The notes under the pieces are model-generated. The model made no database searches. It saw only the letters and a program-made list of their open reading frames with translations, and was not told the origin of the DNA. From an uncultured Flavobacteriales bacterium (GTDB lineage: Bacteria; Bacteroidota; Bacteroidia; Palsa-965), in NCBI GenBank assembly GCA_903873905.1, contig CAIQQJ010000097.1:1-64000 (forward strand): 64,000 nucleotides of DNA, written 5' to 3'. How positions within the stretch are numbered: the stretch's first letter is position 1; every line of letters starts with the position of its first letter. Below, one piece after another: positions 19,885 through 63,819 of this stretch. The position numbers were made by a program, and so were the translations under genes.

Positions 19885-19918
19885 AAAAAAAAATCTATAT
19901 CAAATTAGTTTCAATTTA

Positions 19919-19975
19919 CAGCCGCGAATTACGCGAATTGCGCAGATTGTTTTTGGATTAACAAAGATTCGATTC
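19919..19975 (+). repeat. Short repeat of GCGAATT type
   Basis: GCGAATTACGCGAATTGCGC followed by a degenerate AACAAAGATTCG. It resembles the dispersed ACGAATTACACGAATT repeats common between genes of Bacteroidota. No function is known. Confidence 0.4.
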
Positions 19976-24071: not shown

Positions 24072-25838
24072 TCAGAAATTCAAACCGAGATTTACAGTAA
24101 TTGTCAATTCACCTGTTGTCGCTTGTGTCCTAACAATTGGAAAACGATTGACATAAATCGCACTCAAACTCACTGATGGCTTTCCATAAATTTTCTTTTT
24201 CACTTTCGGAGAAAATGAAAATTGCGCTCGATGACTGAGAATATTACTCATAAGTATTTCATTCGAATAGGAACGATTATAAGAAGAACCTGCAGAAACG
24301 CGTAATGTTCCATTGCATAAAGTTTGAAGCACTTGCATTCCTGGACCAAATAATTCTGTGAGCAACATTCCAGATTCAGATCTATTATAATTTCCAATAA
24401 TTGAAACGGAAGTTTTTGTTTTTACGAATTGTAGGGAATAAGCGCAGTTGCCATTTAAGACAACTGCATTTGACTGAACCAATAAGTTTTGTTGTGTTCC
24501 TGTCAATTGATAAGAACCTATTAAGGAAATACAATGTTTGAAATTTGTTTTCCCAAATGAATGAATGATACTTGTATTGGCCTGCTGCGCAATTTGATAA
24601 AAACTCAATGTGTCAGCAGGTGAAGCTTGCCAGAATGGATCACTTTGCAATCTACGGTTGGTGAAAGTTGTGAAATTAGAATAGGAGGCAGAGAAAATCC
24701 ATTTTTTATTTGGAGTGAAATTGACATTCGTTGAACCCACCCAACGATGTGCTGTGGTCAATTTTGTGCCATCCAAATTATTGTGTTGCCAACCGGTGTT
24801 GAAGGCAATTGATAATTTTCCTTTCAACATTCGAAAACTTGGAGCGATGGTCCAATTATCCAAATCATTATTGAAATAATAGGCACCGAATGTTTGATAA
24901 TCTGGATCAACATGTTCGTGATTGATGGAAACGGAAATGTTTTTCCCTGCATAACCAACAGAACCTTTGTAAGCCTTGAAGAATTGAGTTGTGGATTTTG
25001 TTGGCAACAGAAATTTTTCCATACCACTGAAATCCGTTGTTTCCGTTTCCGATAAAATATTTCTTGTCAATCCTGAAACAGCAAATTCTCCTTCTGCAGA
25101 AAAACATTTCGAAAGTTTTACTTTCCCTGAAAAACTGATAGCGGAATTTTGCGCAGGGGAAAGATTGGTGCCAACTGGAATAAACATCAATGATTTTGCA
25201 TCATCTTTTGCAGTGAAATAAGTCATGCTGATTGAATTCCCATTTTTATCATAACCGATTTTTCCTGCCATTCCCATTCTTTTGAAAGCCATGTTTTCAG
25301 AAGAATTATCAACCAAATTATATTCTACTGCCTTATTCAATCTTCCAAACATCGCTCCGAAATAAAATCCATTCGGGGTGAGTTCAATTCCGCCTCCAGT
25401 AAAAATATGCCCTGCGAGTGTGTAGGAAGAAAAATTCATTGCTGTTGTCCCAATATGTGCTTGTGCCCATTTGTATTTTGGACTGCAACTTTGCATATTG
25501 AAAGGTTGCGTGTACGTTCCATGTAAATTGGAATAGCTGAATGTAAAAGGCAAACTCACATCGAGAACATTGATGTTGAGATTTCCATTGAAATACCACG
25601 TATATGGATCTCTTCTCATTGGGAATCCTTGCGCATCATAAAAAACGGAATTGAAATTCATTCCGCCTCCTACAGTGACCATGTCTTTCTTTCCGATTTT
25701 TTCGAGATTCTGGGAAGGAAGCATTATTGAAAAAGAAATAAAAACAATCATGCCGCAGAGGCGCAGAGTACGCGGATTTTTTCTCTGCGCCTTTGCGCCT
25801 CCGTGGCCAAAATGATTTTTCGCAGATTTTTTCTTCAT
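24072..25838 (-). CDS. Outer-membrane beta-barrel-like protein paired with a T9SS cargo
   Basis: The 588-aa product is rich in alternating aromatic and polar strands (for example WYFNGNLNINVLDVSLPFTFSYS, GAMFGRLNKAVEYN) typical of an outer-membrane barrel; no named family is recognised. Its ATG overlaps the stop of the 1140-aa T9SS protein (ATGA), so the two are coupled. Residues 9-29 (GHGGAKAQRK...RLCG) are encoded by a CTCTGCG-type repeat lying between MKKK and the hydrophobic core IVFISFSIML, as if the repeat had landed inside the signal peptide. The arrangement recalls SprB cargo followed by a membrane partner, but this is not a SprF homologue by eye. Confidence 0.7.
   Translation of the reverse strand: MKKKSAKNHFGHGGAKAQRKNPRTLRLCGMIVFISFSIMLPSQNLEKIGKKDMVTVGGGMNFNSVFYDAQGFPMRRDPYTWYFNGNLNINVLDVSLPFTFSYSNLHGTYTQPFNMQSCSPKYKWAQAHIGTTAMNFSSYTLAGHIFTGGGIELTPNGFYFGAMFGRLNKAVEYNLVDNSSENMAFKRMGMAGKIGYDKNGNSISMTYFTAKDDAKSLMFIPVGTNLSPAQNSAISFSGKVKLSKCFSAEGEFAVSGLTRNILSETETTDFSGMEKFLLPTKSTTQFFKAYKGSVGYAGKNISVSINHEHVDPDYQTFGAYYFNNDLDNWTIAPSFRMLKGKLSIAFNTGWQHNNLDGTKLTTAHRWVGSTNVNFTPNKKWIFSASYSNFTTFTNRRLQSDPFWQASPADTLSFYQIAQQANTSIIHSFGKTNFKHCISLIGSYQLTGTQQNLLVQSNAVVLNGNCAYSLQFVKTKTSVSIIGNYNRSESGMLLTELFGPGMQVLQTLCNGTLRVSAGSSYNRSYSNEILMSNILSHRAQFSFSPKVKKKIYGKPSVSLSAIYVNRFPIVRTQATTGELTITVNLGLNF
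25751..25813 (-). repeat. CTCTGCG-type repeat inside a signal-peptide region
   Basis: Plus-strand reading: GCGCAGAG facing CTCTGCGC, then CCTTTGCGC and CTCCGTGGC, followed by AAAATGA. About 85% identical to the repeat at 48475-48508, and related to 36152-36204. Confidence 0.75.
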
Positions 25839-29257: not shown

Positions 29258-29453
29258 TTCAGTTTAAGTATAGGGGAAGCAAAAATAGTTTTCTTCACTT
29301 GTTTAAGTCGGTCGCAAGCATTTGTTGTCGGAATTAGGAGAAATCAATGTTTTATCATAAGAAAAAAACCAGTTTTACTTTAAAAGATCAATTATGAACT
29401 ATTGTCTGTTCACGCTTATTTCTACAATGAAAATTAGTGAAGTTCACACCAGT

Positions 29454-29461
29454 TACCTTTG
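29454..29461 (+). promoter_or_regulatory. Conserved -7 box of the first SulP gene
   Basis: TACCTTTG lies at the same position relative to the coding region as TATCTTTG upstream of the second SulP copy. This supports a TTG translation start at 29485 rather than the GTG at 29437. Confidence 0.5.
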
Positions 29462-29484
29462 ATCAATCAATTTTTCACAATGTT

Positions 29485-31035
29485 TTGAAACGCGCAATAA
29501 AGTATTATCGCATCATTTGGCTCAAACACGATTTACCTGCGGGCCTTTCTGTTTTTCTTGTTGCACTTCCACTTTGTATGGGAATTGCATTAGCATCTGG
29601 AGCCCCACTTTATTCAGGATTGCTTTCTGGAATGATCGGTGGATTAGTGGTTTCCCTTGTTAGTGGATCTCAGTTAGGCGTTTCAGGTCCTGCTGCAGGT
29701 TTAACTACGGTTGTTGCCGCTTCCATAATCTCATTGGGAGATTTCAAGATTTTTCTGCTTGCCGTAATGGTGGCAGGATTATTTCAATTTCTATTGGGAA
29801 TTTTTCGACTTGGAGGTTTCTCCAATTATTTTCCTTCGTCGGTAATCAAAGGAATGTTGGCGGCGATTGGAATCATTCTGATCTCAAAACAAATTCCATT
29901 ATCACTTGGCTATGACCAACCTGATTTTTGGACAAGTGGATTTCCACAAATATTTTCGAGCAAACATTTTCTTGGAAATCTCGAGAGTTTCTCCGTTCAT
30001 ATCACTAGAGCTCCAATTATCATAACGCTTGTTTCACTGGCCATTCTCATTATCCTTCAACAGCGATTTGCAAAAAAGCTTAAAGTCATTCCTGCGCCAC
30101 TACTTGTTGTAATTGTTGGAATTGGAATCAATTATTTTTTTGCAAAATTTATTCCTGATCTAACACTGAAACCAACTCAACTGGTAAGCATTCCCTCAAA
30201 TATTTTTTCCAACATTTCCTTTCCTGATTTTTCCAAATTATTTTCCACAGTGGAGATTTGGAAAGATGGTTTGATAATTGGGATTCTTGCAACGCTTGAA
30301 ACATTACTGTGTGTCGAGGCCGTCGACAAATTGGATATACGTCACCGTATCACTCCCGTGAACAGGGAATTGATTGCACAGGGAATTGGAAATATGGCCT
30401 GTGGTTTATTGGGAGCCATTCCAATGACATCCGTTGTGGTGAGAGGGGCCGCAAATGCGGATGCGGGTGGAAGAACAAAACTTTCTGCATTTACGCACGG
30501 ACTTTTTCTTTTACTGGCAGTTGTTCTGATTCCTTCTTTTCTCAGTAAAATCCCTTTTGCTTCTCTTGCTGCAATTTTATTGGTAACCGGATTCAATTTG
30601 ACAAAACCAAAATTGTACAGCGATATGTGGAAATTGAAATGGAAACAATTCTTACCATTTGCAATTACCATCGTTGTGATTCTTTGCACCGATTTATTAA
30701 TTGGAGTGAGCATTGGTCTGTTGATTTCCATTTATTATATCATACAGAATAATTTTCGTGCTGATTATAAAATCACAAAAACAATGCAGCACGAAACCGA
30801 GGTCCATTACATGAAGCTCAACACCAATGTTACTTTTCTAAATAAAGTAAACGTGCGAAATGCTTTGGACCAGATTCCAGAATACAGTGTATTGACGATT
30901 GACGGAAGTGAAAGTAATTTTATTGATTATGATATTCTGGAAATTATCAGTGAATTCACCAACAAAGCACACGACCGACATATTGAATTGCATTTGAAGG
31001 GAATTGAAAAAGTGTCCGTTACAGCGGCACATTAA
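29485..31035 (+). CDS. SulP family anion transporter, copy 1
   Basis: Inner-membrane transporter of the SLC26/SulP family; members move sulfate, bicarbonate or other anions. The 516-aa product has about 12-14 TM helices (LPAGLSVFLVALPLCMGIALA is the family signature) and a C-terminal cytoplasmic STAS-like domain (about 440-516, SVLTIDGSESNFIDYDILEIISE). A GTG at 29437 would add 16 residues, but a -7 box lies between; the TTG at 29485 gives exactly the same length as copy 2. About four in five residues agree with copy 2, so this is a tandem duplication. Substrate not determined. Confidence 0.9.
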   Translation: MKRAIKYYRIIWLKHDLPAGLSVFLVALPLCMGIALASGAPLYSGLLSGMIGGLVVSLVSGSQLGVSGPAAGLTTVVAASIISLGDFKIFLLAVMVAGLFQFLLGIFRLGGFSNYFPSSVIKGMLAAIGIILISKQIPLSLGYDQPDFWTSGFPQIFSSKHFLGNLESFSVHITRAPIIITLVSLAILIILQQRFAKKLKVIPAPLLVVIVGIGINYFFAKFIPDLTLKPTQLVSIPSNIFSNISFPDFSKLFSTVEIWKDGLIIGILATLETLLCVEAVDKLDIRHRITPVNRELIAQGIGNMACGLLGAIPMTSVVVRGAANADAGGRTKLSAFTHGLFLLLAVVLIPSFLSKIPFASLAAILLVTGFNLTKPKLYSDMWKLKWKQFLPFAITIVVILCTDLLIGVSIGLLISIYYIIQNNFRADYKITKTMQHETEVHYMKLNTNVTFLNKVNVRNALDQIPEYSVLTIDGSESNFIDYDILEIISEFTNKAHDRHIELHLKGIEKVSVTAAH

Positions 31036-31133: not shown

Positions 31134-32684
31134 TTGAAACGCGCACTTAAGTATTACCGCATCATTTGGCTCAAACACGATTTGCCAGCGGGACTTTCCG
31201 TTTTTCTCGTTGCACTTCCACTTTGTATGGGAATTGCATTGGCTTCTGGAGCGCCACTTTATTCGGGATTACTTTCTGGAATTATTGGTGGATTAATTGT
31301 TTCTCTCATTAGTGGATCACAATTAGCAGTTTCAGGTCCTGCTGCAGGATTATCAACTTTGGTTGCGGCTACCATTATTTCATTGGGGGATTTCAGACTA
31401 TTTCTTCTTGCGGTAATGGTTGCGGGATTATTTCAATTTCTATTGGGAATATTTCGTCTTGGTGGATTTGCAAATTATTTCCCATCTTCTGTCATCAAGG
31501 GTATGTTAGCAGCCATTGGAATTATTCTGATTTCAAAACAAATTCCATTGTCACTTGGTTATGACCAGCCTGATTTTTGGTCGAGCGGATTTACATCGAT
31601 ATTCAAAGGCCAACATTTTCTGGACAATCTTCAAAATTTTTCATTGCACATGACTGCCGGACCCATCATGATTACATTATTATCAATGGGAATTTTGATT
31701 TTTCTCAATCAGCCCTTCGCAAAAAAATACAAGGTTATTCCTGCACCATTATTGGTTGTTCTTATTGGCATTGGTTTGAATTTATTGTTTGCAAAATTTG
31801 CGCCTGGCTATTCCTTGAAACAAACACAATTGGTAAATATTCCAAAAAATCTTTTTTCCAATATTGTATTTCCTGATTTTTCAAAACTTTTTTCAAATGG
31901 TGAAATCTGGAAATCAGGTTTGATCATTGGAATGCTTGCAACATTGGAAACCTTGCTTTGTGTAGAAGCAATGGACAAATTGGACAAGCGAAATCGCATT
32001 ACTCCTGTGAATAGGGAATTGATTGCACAAGGAATTGGAAACATGACGTGTGGCTTATTGGGTGCCATTCCAATGACAGCTGTTGTGGTGCGCGGGTCTG
32101 CGAATGTGAATGCCGGTGGAAGAACAAAACTTTCCGCTTTTACACATGGGCTTTTTCTTTTGCTTGCCGTATTGTTGATTCCTTCCTTACTCAGTAAAAT
32201 TCCATTTGCATCACTTGCCGCCATTCTATTGGTTACAGGATTCAATCTGACCAAGCCAAAATTGTACAGCAACATGTGGAAATTAAAATGGAAACAGTTT
32301 TTCCCCTTTATGATTACCATCGTTGTAATTCTTTGTACTGATTTATTGATAGGTGTAAGCATTGGACTTTTGATTGCTGTTTATTATATCATCCAGAATA
32401 ATTTCCGTTCCGATTATAAAATCACAAAAACAATCCTGCATGAAACGGAAGTGTATTTAATCAAACTCAATAGCAATGTTACCTTCTTGAATAAAGTGAA
32501 ACTACGACATGCACTTGATCAGATTCCAGAATACAGTGTGCTGACGATTGATGGAAGTGAAAGTAATTTTATTGATTACGATATTTTGGAAATCATCAGC
32601 GAGTACAAAGGCAAGGCACACAATCGACACATTGAATTGCACTTGAAAGATATTGAACAAGTGAGCGTGACTGCAATGCATTAA
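31134..32684 (+). CDS. SulP family anion transporter, copy 2
   Basis: Tandem paralogue of the preceding gene, same length (516 aa) and layout: SulP membrane domain with HDLPAGLSVFLVALPLCMGI, GMLAAIGIILISKQIPLSLGY and TRPKL-type helices, then the STAS-like C-terminus. It starts with TTG, at the position homologous to the copy 1 start. Differences are concentrated in the region about 155-260. A terminator follows. Retaining two promoters suggests separate expression of the two copies. Confidence 0.9.
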   Translation: MKRALKYYRIIWLKHDLPAGLSVFLVALPLCMGIALASGAPLYSGLLSGIIGGLIVSLISGSQLAVSGPAAGLSTLVAATIISLGDFRLFLLAVMVAGLFQFLLGIFRLGGFANYFPSSVIKGMLAAIGIILISKQIPLSLGYDQPDFWSSGFTSIFKGQHFLDNLQNFSLHMTAGPIMITLLSMGILIFLNQPFAKKYKVIPAPLLVVLIGIGLNLLFAKFAPGYSLKQTQLVNIPKNLFSNIVFPDFSKLFSNGEIWKSGLIIGMLATLETLLCVEAMDKLDKRNRITPVNRELIAQGIGNMTCGLLGAIPMTAVVVRGSANVNAGGRTKLSAFTHGLFLLLAVLLIPSLLSKIPFASLAAILLVTGFNLTKPKLYSNMWKLKWKQFFPFMITIVVILCTDLLIGVSIGLLIAVYYIIQNNFRSDYKITKTILHETEVYLIKLNSNVTFLNKVKLRHALDQIPEYSVLTIDGSESNFIDYDILEIISEYKGKAHNRHIELHLKDIEQVSVTAMH

Positions 32685-32749: not shown

Positions 32750-32767
32750 GCGATCCTGTGTGTTATT

Positions 32768-32793
32768 GCCACTAAGGCACAAAGGCACGAAGG
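32768..32793. repeat. Left inverted terminus of the GxxExxY cassette
   Basis: A 26-base GGCAC-type repeat starting GCCACTAAGG and ending GGCACGAAGG, 7 bases before the GxxExxY start codon. Its first 24 bases match the reverse complement of 33215-33238 with one mismatch. Confidence 0.85.
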
Positions 32794-32800
32794 TCCTCCG

Positions 32801-33202
32801 ATGGAAGAGAAAATATTTGCAGCAATCGACTCGAATACAGAAAGAATTGCCAAGGCTATTGTTGATTCTGCATACCATGTCCACAAGAATCTTGGACCAG
32901 GTCTTTTAGAAAAAGTTTATGAGGTTTGTTTATGTCACGAACTCACAAAACGTGGAATTTCAACATTGAGGCAAATTGATATACCTATCAAATATGATGG
33001 AATAAAATTCAATGAAGGCTTGCGTTTGGATATTCTCGCAGGTGATGAAGTAATAATTGAGTTGAAAGCAGTTGATCAAGTAAACCCTGTATGGGAAGCT
33101 CAAGTGCTAAGCCACCTAAAACTCACAGGAAAACGACTTGGTTTTCTGATCAATTTCAATGTGCCAAAAATTTATGCGGGAATGAAAAGAATAATCCTAT
33201 GA
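32801..33202 (+). CDS. GxxExxY protein (PD-(D/E)XK nuclease-fold family)
   Basis: Belongs to the GxxExxY family, abundant in Bacteroidota, Chlorobi and Verrucomicrobia, with a predicted PD-(D/E)XK nuclease fold and no established function. The 133-aa product has the name-giving motif G34-LLEKVY-Y40 and the nuclease-like core D77 ... E87-L-K89, followed by Q101 and the VLSHLKLTG helix. Length is normal for the family. It is bracketed by near-perfect 24-base inverted repeats at 32768 and 33215, giving a unit of about 470 bases that looks transposable or repeat-associated. It sits between a terminator and an unrelated operon. Confidence 0.9.
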   Translation: MEEKIFAAIDSNTERIAKAIVDSAYHVHKNLGPGLLEKVYEVCLCHELTKRGISTLRQIDIPIKYDGIKFNEGLRLDILAGDEVIIELKAVDQVNPVWEAQVLSHLKLTGKRLGFLINFNVPKIYAGMKRIIL

Positions 33203-33214
33203 TTCTAAAAAACG

Positions 33215-33238
33215 TTCGTGCCTTTATGCCTTAGTGGC
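33215..33238. repeat. Right inverted terminus of the GxxExxY cassette
   Basis: Reverse complement of the left terminus with 23 of 24 bases identical, 12 bases after the stop codon. Confidence 0.85.
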
Positions 33239-33268
33239 AAAACAAAAATTTGAACCGCTCACTCCCTA

Positions 33269-36127
33269 ATGAAATTATTTCATTTATACATATTTCTTTT
33301 TTTCTCCGGAAATCTCTTTTCCCAAATTGACAGTACCATCAATCCAATGCAAAGCATGGTGCTTTCCATTTGCAACAAAGTGGAAAATGAAAACCGTCTC
33401 GCAGGAAATATGAATCCTGATTCTGCAGCTTCCCTTCCTTTCGGAATTGTAAAAGAAATCGGATCAACTCGCTACATCATTGCCATTGATTCTGCAAAAT
33501 TCCAAACCAATCATGCAAGTTTTTCCGCATTCATGGCATTGGAATTTCCAGGTGCAACTCAGAAAATTTGTTTCTCCGCTCAAAATATTGCGTTCAATCC
33601 GAAAGGTGTCATGCCAGGACCCAATACGAAATTGGTTCTTGTTAGCGAACACAGAATTTCACTTGGACCAAAAGTCACAATGGTTTTAAAACCCGATGGA
33701 TTTAATTATGTTGAATGGGATTGTAATGGGTTTTCCTCCGTAAATCTCAAAGGATATTTTGAATTTGATCCCGGAACAATTTATCCCGATCCATCCTCAC
33801 CACATCCCGATTCACTTGTCCGCGCAGCATTTCAAATTCATGTCAACGACATTCACAATTTCATTGTGCAAACTTCCATAGCGCCATTTTGTATTCGAGG
33901 AATCAACGATATGTCATTTACCGTGCTCGATGCTACTGCCGATTTCAGCGAATTGTCCAATGCTCCCAATATGGTTTTTCCTGCGGGTTACAACCTTGCC
34001 AATTGCAACAATGATCCTTTGATGTGGAATGGATTTTACATGCGGCAATTTCGGGTCAAACTCCCTAAGGAACTTTCTAAGAGTGGGCAACGTCCAGAAA
34101 TTATGGCATCGAATTTATTGATTGACAATTCTGGGGTATCTGGATTATTCCAAGCGAATAATTTGTTTTCTTGTTCACAAGGAAGCATGAGTGGTTGGGG
34201 ATTTTCTGTCAATTCCATTGGAGCATCCATTACTTCCAATCATATCAATGGAGGAACTATGGGCGGTTTTCTAAAATTACCCGTGAGTGAAAATGATTCT
34301 CTTATTTATGCAGCATCCCTATTTGAAAACCTTCAAACGCATCAAACAGATTATAGTTTTACAATTTCTCCTGTAGCAAACATGCATGCAAATGTTTTGT
34401 CTGCACAATTGACACTTTACAATACTTCAACACTCTCCATCAGTAAAACAAATGGGAAACTCAAACCCATTGCTATTCTCAATGGCTTACTCACACTTAA
34501 CACTTCTAATGTAAAAGCAAAGGGTCTGCAATTTCAACAACTGACCATTGCAGCAGAAGCGCCAATTTTGCGAGCGGGGATTTTTTCTTTGACGCCGCTG
34601 AATCCTGACAGTAGCAAACTTGGTGGCTTTGGTTTCAGTCTCAATATGATTCACGTTGGCATTGTGAATAATCAACCTGCAATTGCTTTTAATATTGGTT
34701 TGAATTTTATGGATACCAATTCCGTGAACATCAGTGTAACCGGCGGATTTACGGTCATCACCAAAACAACAACAGTCACTGATGAGGCTGCTGGAGGAAA
34801 TAATACAAAACTACATTGGGAATATGACCATTTACGAGTCGATACTGTTGGTCTTGCTTTCAATTCTTCTGCATTTCATCTCAATGGTACAATTGCCTTT
34901 AAAGACAACGACCCTGTTTATGGAAACGGTTTTTTCGGAAGCATCCAATTTACAGTTGAAAAGGTGATGGCCTCACCTGCCATTGCAAATGTTTGGTTTG
35001 GGAAAAAAGATTCGTATCACTATTTCTATGTGGACGCTTCCGTTCCAATTCCAGTTCCCATTGGTGGCGTTACAATTTACAGATTCATGGGAGGGATTTA
35101 TTATCACATGCAACGTGGAGGAAATGTTCCTTTGGAAAATCAATTGTATTCACCAGCATTTGGATCTGCCTCCACTTATGTTCCGGATAATTCCATTGCG
35201 CTTGGAATAAAAGCAGGCGTTACATTGGGAACAAGTGAAAATCCAAAACCTTGCAACGGTGATGTAGCTCTAGAAATGAATTTTAATGCAAATGGTGGAA
35301 TTAATTTATTACAACTCAGTGGAAATGTCTATTTCATGATCGGAATAATTGAACGACAAAATAAACCTGCCAATCAAATTCCTATTGTGGCTTCCATGCA
35401 AATGCAATTCGATTTTATGAATGATGCATTTCATGCAGTACTCGGAACACAGATACACGTTCCTGGACTTGTAGGAACGGGACAAGCAGTAATTCATTTC
35501 GATCCCCAACTCTGGTACATTCATATTGGCCGTCCGCAAACAAGATTGAATGTAACTGTAGGTGGAATTGGAAATTTCAGTGCCTATCTGGAAGTCGGAC
35601 AATTGATTGACCCAATGCCTCCACCACCACAAGAAGTAACTTCTGTTGTAAATGCAAATGGTTTGAATGATCAGCGAAATGAAAACGCATTGAATAATGC
35701 AAGCGGATTTGCCTTCGGTGCAAATTTCGGAACTGGTTTTGATGGACAAGTTGGGTTTGAGAATTGGTATTTGTATTACAATTTCGCAGCGGGAGTTGGA
35801 TTTGATGTAATGGTTTTGGATTATGGATCAAATGCGCATTGCACCAATACCAATGATGTCATAGGACTTCATGGTTGGTATGCCAGTGGGCAAATTTATG
35901 CTTACCTGCAAGGAGCAATTGGTTTGCATGGACGCGTATCCGCTCAGGATTTTGATTTTACCATTGTCACACTTTCCGCAGCTGCCATTTTGCAAGCGAA
36001 AATTCCGAATCCAAGTTGGGTGGGTGGTGCGATGGGGTGTGACTATGATGTCCTCGGTGGAATAGTTTCAGGGCATTGTGATTTTTCATTCGAAGTTGGT
36101 AACCAATGTAGCATTGTACAGAATTGA
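33269..36127 (+). CDS. Very large secreted protein of unknown function
   Basis: The 952-aa product has a signal peptide (LYIFLFFSGNLFSQ) and no family I can name. The sequence is low in charge, rich in beta-prone stretches with Asn/Gly turns, and has a C-terminal part (about 780-952) with repeated aromatic strands and a few cysteines (C871, C929 region, C938, C947 approximately) that could form disulfides. No T9SS tail is visible. Its TGA stop overlaps the TTG start of the next gene, so the two are coupled and probably function together at the cell surface. Confidence 0.65.
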   Translation: MKLFHLYIFLFFSGNLFSQIDSTINPMQSMVLSICNKVENENRLAGNMNPDSAASLPFGIVKEIGSTRYIIAIDSAKFQTNHASFSAFMALEFPGATQKICFSAQNIAFNPKGVMPGPNTKLVLVSEHRISLGPKVTMVLKPDGFNYVEWDCNGFSSVNLKGYFEFDPGTIYPDPSSPHPDSLVRAAFQIHVNDIHNFIVQTSIAPFCIRGINDMSFTVLDATADFSELSNAPNMVFPAGYNLANCNNDPLMWNGFYMRQFRVKLPKELSKSGQRPEIMASNLLIDNSGVSGLFQANNLFSCSQGSMSGWGFSVNSIGASITSNHINGGTMGGFLKLPVSENDSLIYAASLFENLQTHQTDYSFTISPVANMHANVLSAQLTLYNTSTLSISKTNGKLKPIAILNGLLTLNTSNVKAKGLQFQQLTIAAEAPILRAGIFSLTPLNPDSSKLGGFGFSLNMIHVGIVNNQPAIAFNIGLNFMDTNSVNISVTGGFTVITKTTTVTDEAAGGNNTKLHWEYDHLRVDTVGLAFNSSAFHLNGTIAFKDNDPVYGNGFFGSIQFTVEKVMASPAIANVWFGKKDSYHYFYVDASVPIPVPIGGVTIYRFMGGIYYHMQRGGNVPLENQLYSPAFGSASTYVPDNSIALGIKAGVTLGTSENPKPCNGDVALEMNFNANGGINLLQLSGNVYFMIGIIERQNKPANQIPIVASMQMQFDFMNDAFHAVLGTQIHVPGLVGTGQAVIHFDPQLWYIHIGRPQTRLNVTVGGIGNFSAYLEVGQLIDPMPPPPQEVTSVVNANGLNDQRNENALNNASGFAFGANFGTGFDGQVGFENWYLYYNFAAGVGFDVMVLDYGSNAHCTNTNDVIGLHGWYASGQIYAYLQGAIGLHGRVSAQDFDFTIVTLSAAAILQAKIPNPSWVGGAMGCDYDVLGGIVSGHCDFSFEVGNQCSIVQN

Positions 36128-38235
36128 AATCTGCCATCAAATATTTTTTATCGCAAATACGCGGAGATCACCGAGATTCTTTGCGTTCTCTGCGCCTCTG
36201 CGGCACAATCCTGTTTCTAATAAACTCTGCATCTCTCCATTCACAATCATCTCCCGATATTTTCATTCGCACATTCGCTACACATGATAGCATTATGTTG
36301 CGCTGGGTTCCTGCAAATACAGAAACATGGAAACTTGGAAATAAATATGGCTATGAAATTGAACGGTTCACTGCGGATGAATATCTCGATTTGAAAGGAC
36401 AAGATCCGACAGGAAAAGGAACAATACTTAATTCAAATCCAATTCTCCCATTGGCAAAAAACGATTCGACATGGAATAAGTTAATTCGTGAAGACAAAAT
36501 AAATGCTTTTGTATATCAAAGTATTTATGAAAATACAAATTCAACAAGCAGTGATCCTGCAAAAAGAAAACTGGAAGAACAAACCAAATTCGGATTGATT
36601 CTGAAAGCTTGTGATGTTTCTCTCAATACGGCAAAAGCACATGGCCTGTTTTTTGTAGACAAAAATATTGTTCGAGGACAAATTTATTTTTACAGAATTC
36701 GAATAGCCAATCTTCCTGCAGAAATAAAATGCAATCCAGGAATCGCAACAGCTGATGAAAAAATCTCCGTTCTTAAATCACCGAATAAATTGTGTGGGGA
36801 TTTTCGGAATAGAAAAGTCGCATTGACATTTGATGTTGCAACTACGCGGGAAGAATTTGCAGGATATATCATTGAGCGTTCGGAGGATAGTATTCATTTT
36901 GAAAGGATAAATTCAACACTACTCACATTCACCCATTCACAATACGAACAAAATAAAACTGAAGTGGTTTTTCAAGATACATTTCCATTAAATCATAAAA
37001 CATATTGGTATCGTGTACGCGGATATTCCTATTTCGGATTTGCTGGTCCACCTTCTTCAACTGTGAAAGGAAAAGGTCGTGATGAGTGGAATTACTATCC
37101 GGAGATTGACACTTTGTTTTCCATTGACAACAAACAAGTGAAATTGAAATGGCATATTCCCCCAATGAAAGACTCAAGTTATTTGAAAGGATTTGTTGTT
37201 TTGTGTGCAACGAAATCGGATGGACATTATGAAAACAAAAACTCTTTGGGTAAGAATATTTTTGAATTCAATGATGACAAACCTTTGTTTGTAAACTACT
37301 ACATCATTTGCGCTTTAAGCACTGAAGGAGATTCCGCATTTTCATTTCCTTATTTATTTCAACTGAAGGATAATGAGCCCCCGCCTATTCCTGAAAATCT
37401 TGCTGGCACGGTTGACACCAATGGAATTGTTCGGTTGTCCTGGAATAGAGTTTCCGCTGTTGATTTAAAAGGCTATCGTGTTTTCCGAAGCAATAGTTTG
37501 AAAGAGGAATTTTATGAAGTAAGTGATTCCATTCTTCCGGAAAATATTTTTATTGACACCATCGCCATAAAAACATTGACACGAGATGTTTTTTATTGTG
37601 TGAGAAGCGTTGACAAAATGTACAATAATTCAAAAAACGCTCCACCTTGCAAATTGAAACGTCCAGACAAAATCCCACCCGTTCCAATTGTTGTAAAAAC
37701 AATTTTCCACTCTGATACAACGATTGATTTTTCCTGGATCAACAGTAGTAGTGATGACATCAGGTGTATGGAATTAATTCGCAAATCTTCATTGGGGGAA
37801 ACGCAAAAATTGGGAAACTGGAATGGTAAAGACACTGTTCAACATTTCACGGATTTTTCTGCGACAATCGGATTGGATTATAGCTATTTCATAATCCTAA
37901 CTGACAGTAGTGAAAATAGCTCAACAACAAATTTTCCAACAATACATTTCCAACCAAGAATTAATCCTGCACTGAAAAATCTTTCCGCCGTTCCTGATTT
38001 TGAAAAACGGATCATCACGCTTTCTTGGGATGCACCTCAACAAAAAGTTGACCGCTATATTATTTACAAATCAAAAGTCGAAGAACCCTTGCGAGAATGG
38101 AAAACAATTGATGGAAACAAAGTCTCCATTATTGACAAGGAACTTTATCCGGGAAACACTTATGTTTACAAAGTGAAAGCAATAATGAAAAGTGGAGCAG
38201 AAACGAAATTAGTGATGGTGCAATTGGTTTTTTGA
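36124..38235 (+). CDS. Secreted protein with multiple fibronectin III-like domains
   Basis: The 703-aa product contains several Fn3-like modules, seen as the recurring pattern ...LSWNR...DLKGYRVFRSNS..., ...LTFDVATTREEFAGYIIERSEDS..., ...WDAPQQKVDRYIIYKSK.... It starts with TTG inside the stop codon of the preceding gene. Residues 13-28 (RGDHRDSLRSLRLCG) come from a CTCTGCG-type repeat (36152-36204) placed just before the hydrophobic core TILFLINSASLHSQ. Together with the 952-aa protein it forms a two-gene unit. Role unknown; Fn3 repeats suggest binding or spacing. Confidence 0.72.
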   Translation: MKSAIKYFLSQIRGDHRDSLRSLRLCGTILFLINSASLHSQSSPDIFIRTFATHDSIMLRWVPANTETWKLGNKYGYEIERFTADEYLDLKGQDPTGKGTILNSNPILPLAKNDSTWNKLIREDKINAFVYQSIYENTNSTSSDPAKRKLEEQTKFGLILKACDVSLNTAKAHGLFFVDKNIVRGQIYFYRIRIANLPAEIKCNPGIATADEKISVLKSPNKLCGDFRNRKVALTFDVATTREEFAGYIIERSEDSIHFERINSTLLTFTHSQYEQNKTEVVFQDTFPLNHKTYWYRVRGYSYFGFAGPPSSTVKGKGRDEWNYYPEIDTLFSIDNKQVKLKWHIPPMKDSSYLKGFVVLCATKSDGHYENKNSLGKNIFEFNDDKPLFVNYYIICALSTEGDSAFSFPYLFQLKDNEPPPIPENLAGTVDTNGIVRLSWNRVSAVDLKGYRVFRSNSLKEEFYEVSDSILPENIFIDTIAIKTLTRDVFYCVRSVDKMYNNSKNAPPCKLKRPDKIPPVPIVVKTIFHSDTTIDFSWINSSSDDIRCMELIRKSSLGETQKLGNWNGKDTVQHFTDFSATIGLDYSYFIILTDSSENSSTTNFPTIHFQPRINPALKNLSAVPDFEKRIITLSWDAPQQKVDRYIIYKSKVEEPLREWKTIDGNKVSIIDKELYPGNTYVYKVKAIMKSGAETKLVMVQLVF
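36152..36204 (+). repeat. CTCTGCG-type repeat in the signal-peptide region of the Fn3 protein
   Basis: Period-9 units TTCTTTGCG, TTCTCTGCG and CCTCTGCGG (36177-36203), with a partial inverted arm (CGCAAATACGCGGAG) at 36152. Confidence 0.7.
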
Positions 38236-48474: not shown

Positions 48475-48508
48475 TTCTCTGCGTCTCCGCGCCTCGGCGG
48501 CTAAAATG
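48475..48508 (-). repeat. CTCTGCG-type repeat filling the methyltransferase/metH gap
   Basis: Plus-strand units TTCTCTGCG, TCTCCGCGC and CTCGGCGGC followed by TAAAATGA. Nearly the same as 25781-25813. It takes up almost the whole intercistronic space. Confidence 0.75.
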
Positions 48509-49317: not shown

Positions 49318-49337
49318 ATTGAAGATCAAACCTCTGA

Positions 49338-49526
49338 CTTATTTCTCCCCGAATCCTAACAATGCTGTTGGGACGGGATACGAGTTGGCACCTTCTTCGA
49401 TAGTGCTTGGTTCGGAGTTTGGAGTTCGTAGATTGTAATATCTCCGAACCAAAAACTAAAAACTCGTCACTAAATCAGGGTTGCCAAGGCTTCAAAGGGC
49501 GCAATCCCTCAGCCTTTCTGAATAAG
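49338..49526 (-). promoter_or_regulatory. SAM-I riboswitch with an expanded P3 arm
   Basis: Minus-strand landmarks of the S-box aptamer: P1 CTTATT (49521-49526) with AATAAG (49338-49343); AGAAAGGCTGAGGGA and GCCCTTTGAAGCC around 49483-49517; the invariant GGCAACC at 49490-49496 region; and GGTGCCAA at 49385-49392. The aptamer is about 189 nt instead of the usual 100-120 because its P3 arm contains an inverted pair of period-7 arrays (49409-49469). SAM binding should favour the downstream terminator and reduce methyltransferase and metH expression. Confidence 0.9.
49409..49469 (-). repeat. Period-7 inverted pair inside the riboswitch P3 arm
   Basis: Left units GGTTCGG, AGTTTGG, AGTTCGT, AGATTGT; right units CTCCGAA, CCAAAAA, CTAAAAA, CTCGTCA. 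Most positions pair across a short loop near 49437-49441. Confidence 0.75.
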
Positions 49527-49547
49527 TTGAATTTTAAAGAACCGCGA

Positions 49548-63791: not shown

Positions 63792-63819
63792 TACCACGAA
63801 AGCACAAAGGCACGAAGGT
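63792..63819. repeat. Solo GGCAC-type repeat between the two aldehyde dehydrogenase genes
   Basis: Matches the GxxExxY cassette terminus at about 23 of 26 positions and ends one base before the stop codon of the upstream dehydrogenase. No GxxExxY gene is attached. Confidence 0.75.

Follow-up and report, generated by a model that had tools for sequence, protein, structure and literature searches.

The GxxExxY gene of the window (the whole stretch of DNA analysed, 64,000 nucleotides of a Flavobacteriales contig) is enclosed by inverted terminal arrays of short tandem units, and we consider that gene and arms together form a minimal mobile element whose nuclease acts on the arrays in a REPtron-like manner (probability about 0.6). 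The cassette has a total length of approximately 470 bp and holds a single small PD-(D/E)XK nuclease gene. Its arms are 29 nt each and 93% complementary, and the best 24-base stretch, GCCACTAAGGCACAAAGGCACGAA, matches at 23 of 24 positions, as expected from the near-perfect inverted repeat described in the initial annotation. Each arm consists of three tandem 8-base units of the word CACNAAGG, a CRCNRAG form. This three-unit structure had been overlooked, as had two gene-less inverted pairs (array matches at 25754-25805 and 36152-36202) and the solo arrays at 19923-19947 and 48477-48499. A solo relative of the arms, already noticed at the far end of the window, is present (25-mer match at 63794-63818). 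The arm 25-mer occurs three times in the window and never in 100 shuffles, and a search of the genome of origin with this 25-mer found 16 copies at three or fewer mismatches, compared with none for the reversed pattern. The element is located between protein-coding genes and not in a 23S rRNA gene, no Rfam or other RNA family match was found at its position, and its lone gene matched only the PDDEXK_3/GxxExxY domains. Immediately upstream are two neighbouring, closely similar SulP-type transporter genes (29437-31035 and 31134-32684), an apparent tandem duplication.

Table 1. Positions of the cassette and of related arrays in the window.
Feature	Positions	Strand	Description
Left terminal array	32766-32794	+	Three units, CACTAAGG CACAAAGG CACGAAGG; outer end TTGC
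GxxExxY gene	32801-33202	+	133 aa, PD-(D/E)XK nuclease; G34LLE37xxY40, D77, E87xK89, Q101
Right terminal array	33212-33240	-	Inverted copy of the left arm; three units, with a single-base difference in the 24-base core
Solo array related to the arms	63792-63819	+	Two strict units and one degenerate unit
Gene-less inverted pair, CGCNGAGG type	25748-25808		About 6 bp between two three-unit arrays
Gene-less inverted pair	36146-36208		63 bp; about 4 bp between arrays
Solo array, CGCNNATT type	19917-19949	+	
Solo array, CGCNGAG type	48475-48507	-	

The window protein belongs to TIGR04256 (E = 2.9e-40; 137.3 bits against a curated cut-off of 35) and PF13366 (E = 4.3e-37; 127.5 bits against 22). Asp77, Glu87 and Lys89, which had been proposed as the PD-(D/E)XK core, are invariant in all 53 aligned relatives together with Gly32, Gly34, Glu37, Tyr40 and Gln101. 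Tyr105 is kept in at least 90% of these relatives and is replaced by His in the window protein. The D-ExK plus QxxxY residue pattern resembles the motif pattern of the RecB family. The AlphaFold (AF2) model has a pLDDT of 95, and among PDB folds it comes closest to LHK-Exo/lambda exonuclease and to SSO0001, a Cas4 protein (probability 0.96-0.98, yet with Foldseek E values above 0.01). The predicted fold thus points to an enzyme of the RecB/Cas4/lambda-exonuclease type with a cutting or end-processing activity. The fold and the D-ExK and QxxxY motifs are shared with those nucleases, whereas the GxxExxY gene stands alone, with no CRISPR, recombinase or helicase partner, and has no sequence match in the PDB. 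In a survey of reverse transcriptases, GxxExxY was called at a place where another tool saw cas4 (PMC8934634). PADLOC and PHROG searches with the window protein also gave no match, including to any described anti-phage defence family in PADLOC. GxxExxY was absent from all 50,697 phage records, and among 2.9 million viral contigs scanned by pattern only two loci were confirmed, indicating that the gene is rare in viruses; seven plasmid or chromid records carry it. Of the genomes sampled from the phylum, about half (74/148) have the gene, with up to 12 copies each. Three proteins that are 61-77% identical to the window protein (L038, L043 and L055) come from assemblies assigned to other phyla, which suggests horizontal transfer or, possibly, MAG contamination.

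Four of the five GxxExxY genes in the genome of origin are enclosed by inverted arrays, and the words differ between them: CACNAAGG in the window element, CGCNGAGG in L018, CGCNGATT in L020, and CRCGRATT with 10-base steps in L021. The L018 gene is decayed by one in-frame TGA, and its arms are still found on either side. Inverted repeats with a score of at least 14 flank 44 of 87 GxxExxY genes, drawn from GTDB genomes and from genus relatives, compared with 0 of 409 shifted positions at the same loci and 11 of 300 cross-pairings. When 132 genes from many phyla were searched for CRCNRAG units (at least two per array), inverted arrays were found on both sides of 62, whereas none of 756 shifted controls had them. 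At 104 of these genes, at least one side carries an array of the G or T type, and many of the others show variant words by eye, such as CACAAAA, CACGACG and CGGACG. At some genes, for example L017, recognisable arms are absent. The hosts, many of them MAGs and some isolates, belong to Bacteroidota, Chloroflexota, Planctomycetota, Acidobacteriota and several Pseudomonadota, with one Methanosarcinales archaeon. The initial annotation had raised the question of whether other GxxExxY genes have the same termini; termini do exist at these genes, in strong excess over the controls, but their sequence is specific to each element and is not the same 24-mer. Neither of the two results that the initial annotation had named as counter-evidence was obtained.

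The general arm mostly has three tandem units, C-R-C-N-R-A-(G/T), at steps of 8, 9 or 10 bp, with RCC at the outer end, and its sequence varies between elements, even inside one genome. The two arms of one element are closely matched: their unit spacing is identical in 98% of cases (37% across elements), and the bases at unit positions 2 and 5 are the same in 93-94%, compared with 63% and 49% across elements. Position 4, in contrast, agrees in only 54% within an element and 42% across. When the comparison is confined to elements of one genome, the agreement at position 2 is 0.85 within and 0.40 between elements; therefore, the host base composition is not the reason. On the protein tree, the unit type (G or T at position 7) changes 4 times, compared with at least 15 in 200 shuffles, and the step length 13 times, compared with at least 31. 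The Mantel correlation between arms and protein is 0.40, whereas the maximum of 1000 permutations is 0.12. At the level of sequence, these comparisons demonstrate that the gene and its arms are one evolutionary unit in which the arm type tracks the protein lineage. Because gene and arms are linked, any co-inherited unit would show such a shared phylogeny, which is a point against the mobile-element explanation. Pairing in a stem would demand a match at every position, whereas here some positions are constrained and position 4 is free; the pattern of agreement therefore appears closer to that of a protein recognition site than to that of a stem. This position-specific agreement of the two arms gives indirect support to recognition of the array units by the nuclease.

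Arrays also occur apart from the gene. In the genome of origin, sampled as stretches totalling 860 kb, there are 17 arrays of at least three units, compared with one in the reversed sequence; three of the 17 are tight CACCAAT-like repeats and probably not part of the set. Only one of the 17 falls inside a long ORF, and the array words match those of the GxxExxY elements of that genome. Some arrays form gene-less inverted pairs with a few bases between them, and unpaired solo arms are frequent. Although the units are short and degenerate, an artefact of chance, or of base composition in low-complexity intergenic DNA, has a negligible probability: it is refuted by the shifted positions, the reversed sequence and the absence of the arm 25-mer from shuffles, and the comparison of elements within one genome is also against it.

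Several arrays have unusual surroundings. The pair at 36146-36208 forms an in-frame part of the signal-peptide region of an ORF (36124-38235). At a second site where arrays extend into a gene start (L253, G003:C8:249000-258000), several CACNAAGG arrays are clustered upstream of the ORF952 orthologue and seemingly lengthen its N-terminus. At G099:C15:221391-221706 and 263416-263749, arrays in the same orientation are repeated at spacings of about 49 and 77-155 bases, as if they had been locally amplified in tandem. A SAM riboswitch (49336-49528, minus strand) near an apparent metH is found in the same region of the window as the solo array at 48477-48499.

The arrays and the gene also occur together at the genome level. 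In a sample of 148 genomes of one phylum, a strict array pattern was found in 25 genomes, all of which carry GxxExxY; against its overall frequency, this corresponds to p = 2.6e-9, a value to be taken as indicative because related genomes are not independent. At the genus level, all 22 genera with arrays have the gene, compared with 48 of 83 overall (p = 4e-7, likewise indicative). The count includes arrays beside GxxExxY genes, and many of the listed arrays are far from any listed gene. These data bear on the alternative that a different enzyme spreads the arrays, with the GxxExxY gene as a passenger caught between two of them. The occurrence of solo and paired arrays away from the gene would agree with such a passenger, as would the still putative role of the nuclease. 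We nevertheless regard this alternative as unlikely: the array type tracks the GxxExxY phylogeny, every genome with strict arrays carries the gene, and in the 860 kb sampled, inverted pairs wide enough for a gene were not seen to hold any other type.

The proposal that the cassette is mobile gained support from orthologous sites with and without the element. The interval between the convergent recJ and dnaG genes is 481 bp in the genome of origin, where it holds the L018 element, and 24 bp in a relative (G001). An element lies between fabD and fabG in Sphingomonas parapaucimobilis, and the two genes are side by side in S. paeninsulae. ORF952 and ORF703 are adjacent in two relatives (G004 and G006); the genome of origin has the inverted pair 36146-36208 there, and in G003 a truncated GxxExxY remnant is still present between the arms. 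This site shows an internally deleted derivative. Between radA and an FAD gene, many species of a Bacteroides-type genus have elements with CACAGAGG, CACAGAGT or CACAGATT/CGCAGATT arms, whereas other species have no element, including one relative with flanks that are 93% and 88% identical. We also considered the radA/FAD elements as three independent insertions, corresponding to three protein groups and three arm types, and set this aside, as one clade was not rejected (AU test, p = 0.90); vertical inheritance with repeated loss at this site is possible. At two empty junctions (L381 and L376), the word CACTGAT occurs twice just past the radA stop codon, at a distance of about 15 bases; this is possibly the decayed arm of a lost element, or could be due to chance. 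A further candidate empty site, from a comparison within a genus (L224 and G118), turned out to be shared. No target-site duplication was seen at the occupied and empty junctions, where the relatives are too diverged for the exact ends to be read. Gain and loss of gene and arms as a unit, with gene-less derivatives, are well supported.

The arrays might instead be binding sites for the regulation or self-protection of a nuclease that serves the host (an operator, a toxin control or a self/non-self mark), and not mobile ends. Although the position-specific code would suit a DNA-binding site and the nuclease residues are strongly conserved, this explanation appears quite improbable because the gene has such sites, mutually inverted, on either side, gene and arms appear and disappear as one block, the decayed L018 gene remains between its arms, and PADLOC gave no match.

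The relation of RAYT transposases to REP repeats had been suggested as an analogy. It is apt for the way of working, while the enzyme and the repeat proved to be unrelated. In REPtrons and REPINs, as here, a gene is flanked by a short repeat in inverted orientation, further copies of that repeat are dispersed, mainly between genes, singly or in inverted pairs, and the repeat type is linked to the enzyme lineage (PMC8266576, PMC3116915). The REPtron enzyme, however, is a Y1 HUH protein, whereas GxxExxY is a PD-(D/E)XK nuclease with no HUH match; the REP repeat is a palindrome with GTAG, whereas the GxxExxY arm is a direct array; and the host ranges differ. The GxxExxY element would thus work like a REPtron, yet its enzyme and its repeat show that it is not one. 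With MITEs and IS elements, it shares terminal inverted repeats, gene-less and truncated derivatives, and presence or absence at orthologous sites, but it has no DDE, HUH, serine or tyrosine recombinase and has many single-ended solo copies, and no target-site duplication was seen at its diverged junctions. PD-(D/E)XK homing endonucleases such as I-Ssp6803I are also small nucleases of this class in selfish elements; the GxxExxY element differs in its intergenic location, its terminal repeat arrays and the lack of an intron or intein.

A parallel in layout is the intervening sequence of 23S rRNA genes with an S23/IVP ORF, in which a small ORF lies within inverted arms of short tandem words and which is suspected to be mobile; in Coxiella, tandem heptamers adjoin the S23 ORF, and the sequence is excised by RNase III (PMC4990558). 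The genome of origin has 16 S23/IVP (PF05635) genes. When the flanks of S23/IVP genes outside rRNA were examined in this genome and the phylum (L022-L035 and L256-L285), 19 of 44 were found to have inverted arms of mostly 7-base words, compared with 0 of 264 controls. Heptamer arrays of at least four copies occur 43 times in the 860 kb and are absent after shuffling. Heptamer arms around S23/IVP and unit arms around GxxExxY mean that two unrelated families of small proteins have one architecture, and the S23/IVP genes look like a second system of similar design. The two systems differ in the protein (four-helix S23/IVP versus PDDEXK_3), the step (7 versus 8-10 bases) and the location, since GxxExxY is not in rRNA.

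This bracketed layout, shared within the same genomes, and the Coxiella precedent raise the possibility of an RNA-level element, in which the arms pair in the transcript with the gene in the loop, and processing, for example by RNase III, spares the host. Such an element seems distinctly unlikely here. The near-free position 4, beside the agreement at positions 2 and 5, is not what selection for pairing predicts, and partnerless solo arms, the lack of an Rfam match and the many unrelated intergenic sites also stand against it. Unlike the arms of the 23S intervening sequences, those of GxxExxY agree in the manner of recognition sites and not as a stem.

We therefore return to a mobile element with a nuclease that acts on its own termini. 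The nuclease would bind the unit arrays, its cleavage would drive the spread of the element, and it may spread solo and paired array derivatives in trans, as RAYT is thought to do with REPs. We infer its role as the driver of movement; solo single arms are poorly explained by cut-and-paste transposition, which counts against this explanation. More tentatively, these could be minimal mobile DNA elements of a new class, present across bacteria and in some archaea. In this broader proposal, a lone RecB/Cas4-type PD-(D/E)XK nuclease would read a modular code of about three CRCNRAK units per end, with positions 2, 5 and 7 set by the protein and position 4 free, and would spread both itself and solo or paired arrays; the same architecture, with 7-base units, would be used by a second and unrelated family, the four-helix S23/IVP proteins, among them those of the intervening sequences in rRNA. 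No description of the GxxExxY/array system was found in the literature searched, which excluded subscription papers.

To our knowledge, PD-(D/E)XK nucleases are not known to move DNA alone, and an element of this type would rest on a nuclease class new in that role. The link of GxxExxY to a dispersed repeat gives a common protein without a known function a directly testable role and accounts for a common class of intergenic repeats. The unit code would allow binding specificity to be read from the genome sequence, and the layout shared with the S23/IVP genes puts the rRNA intervening sequences, a long-standing puzzle, in a new light.
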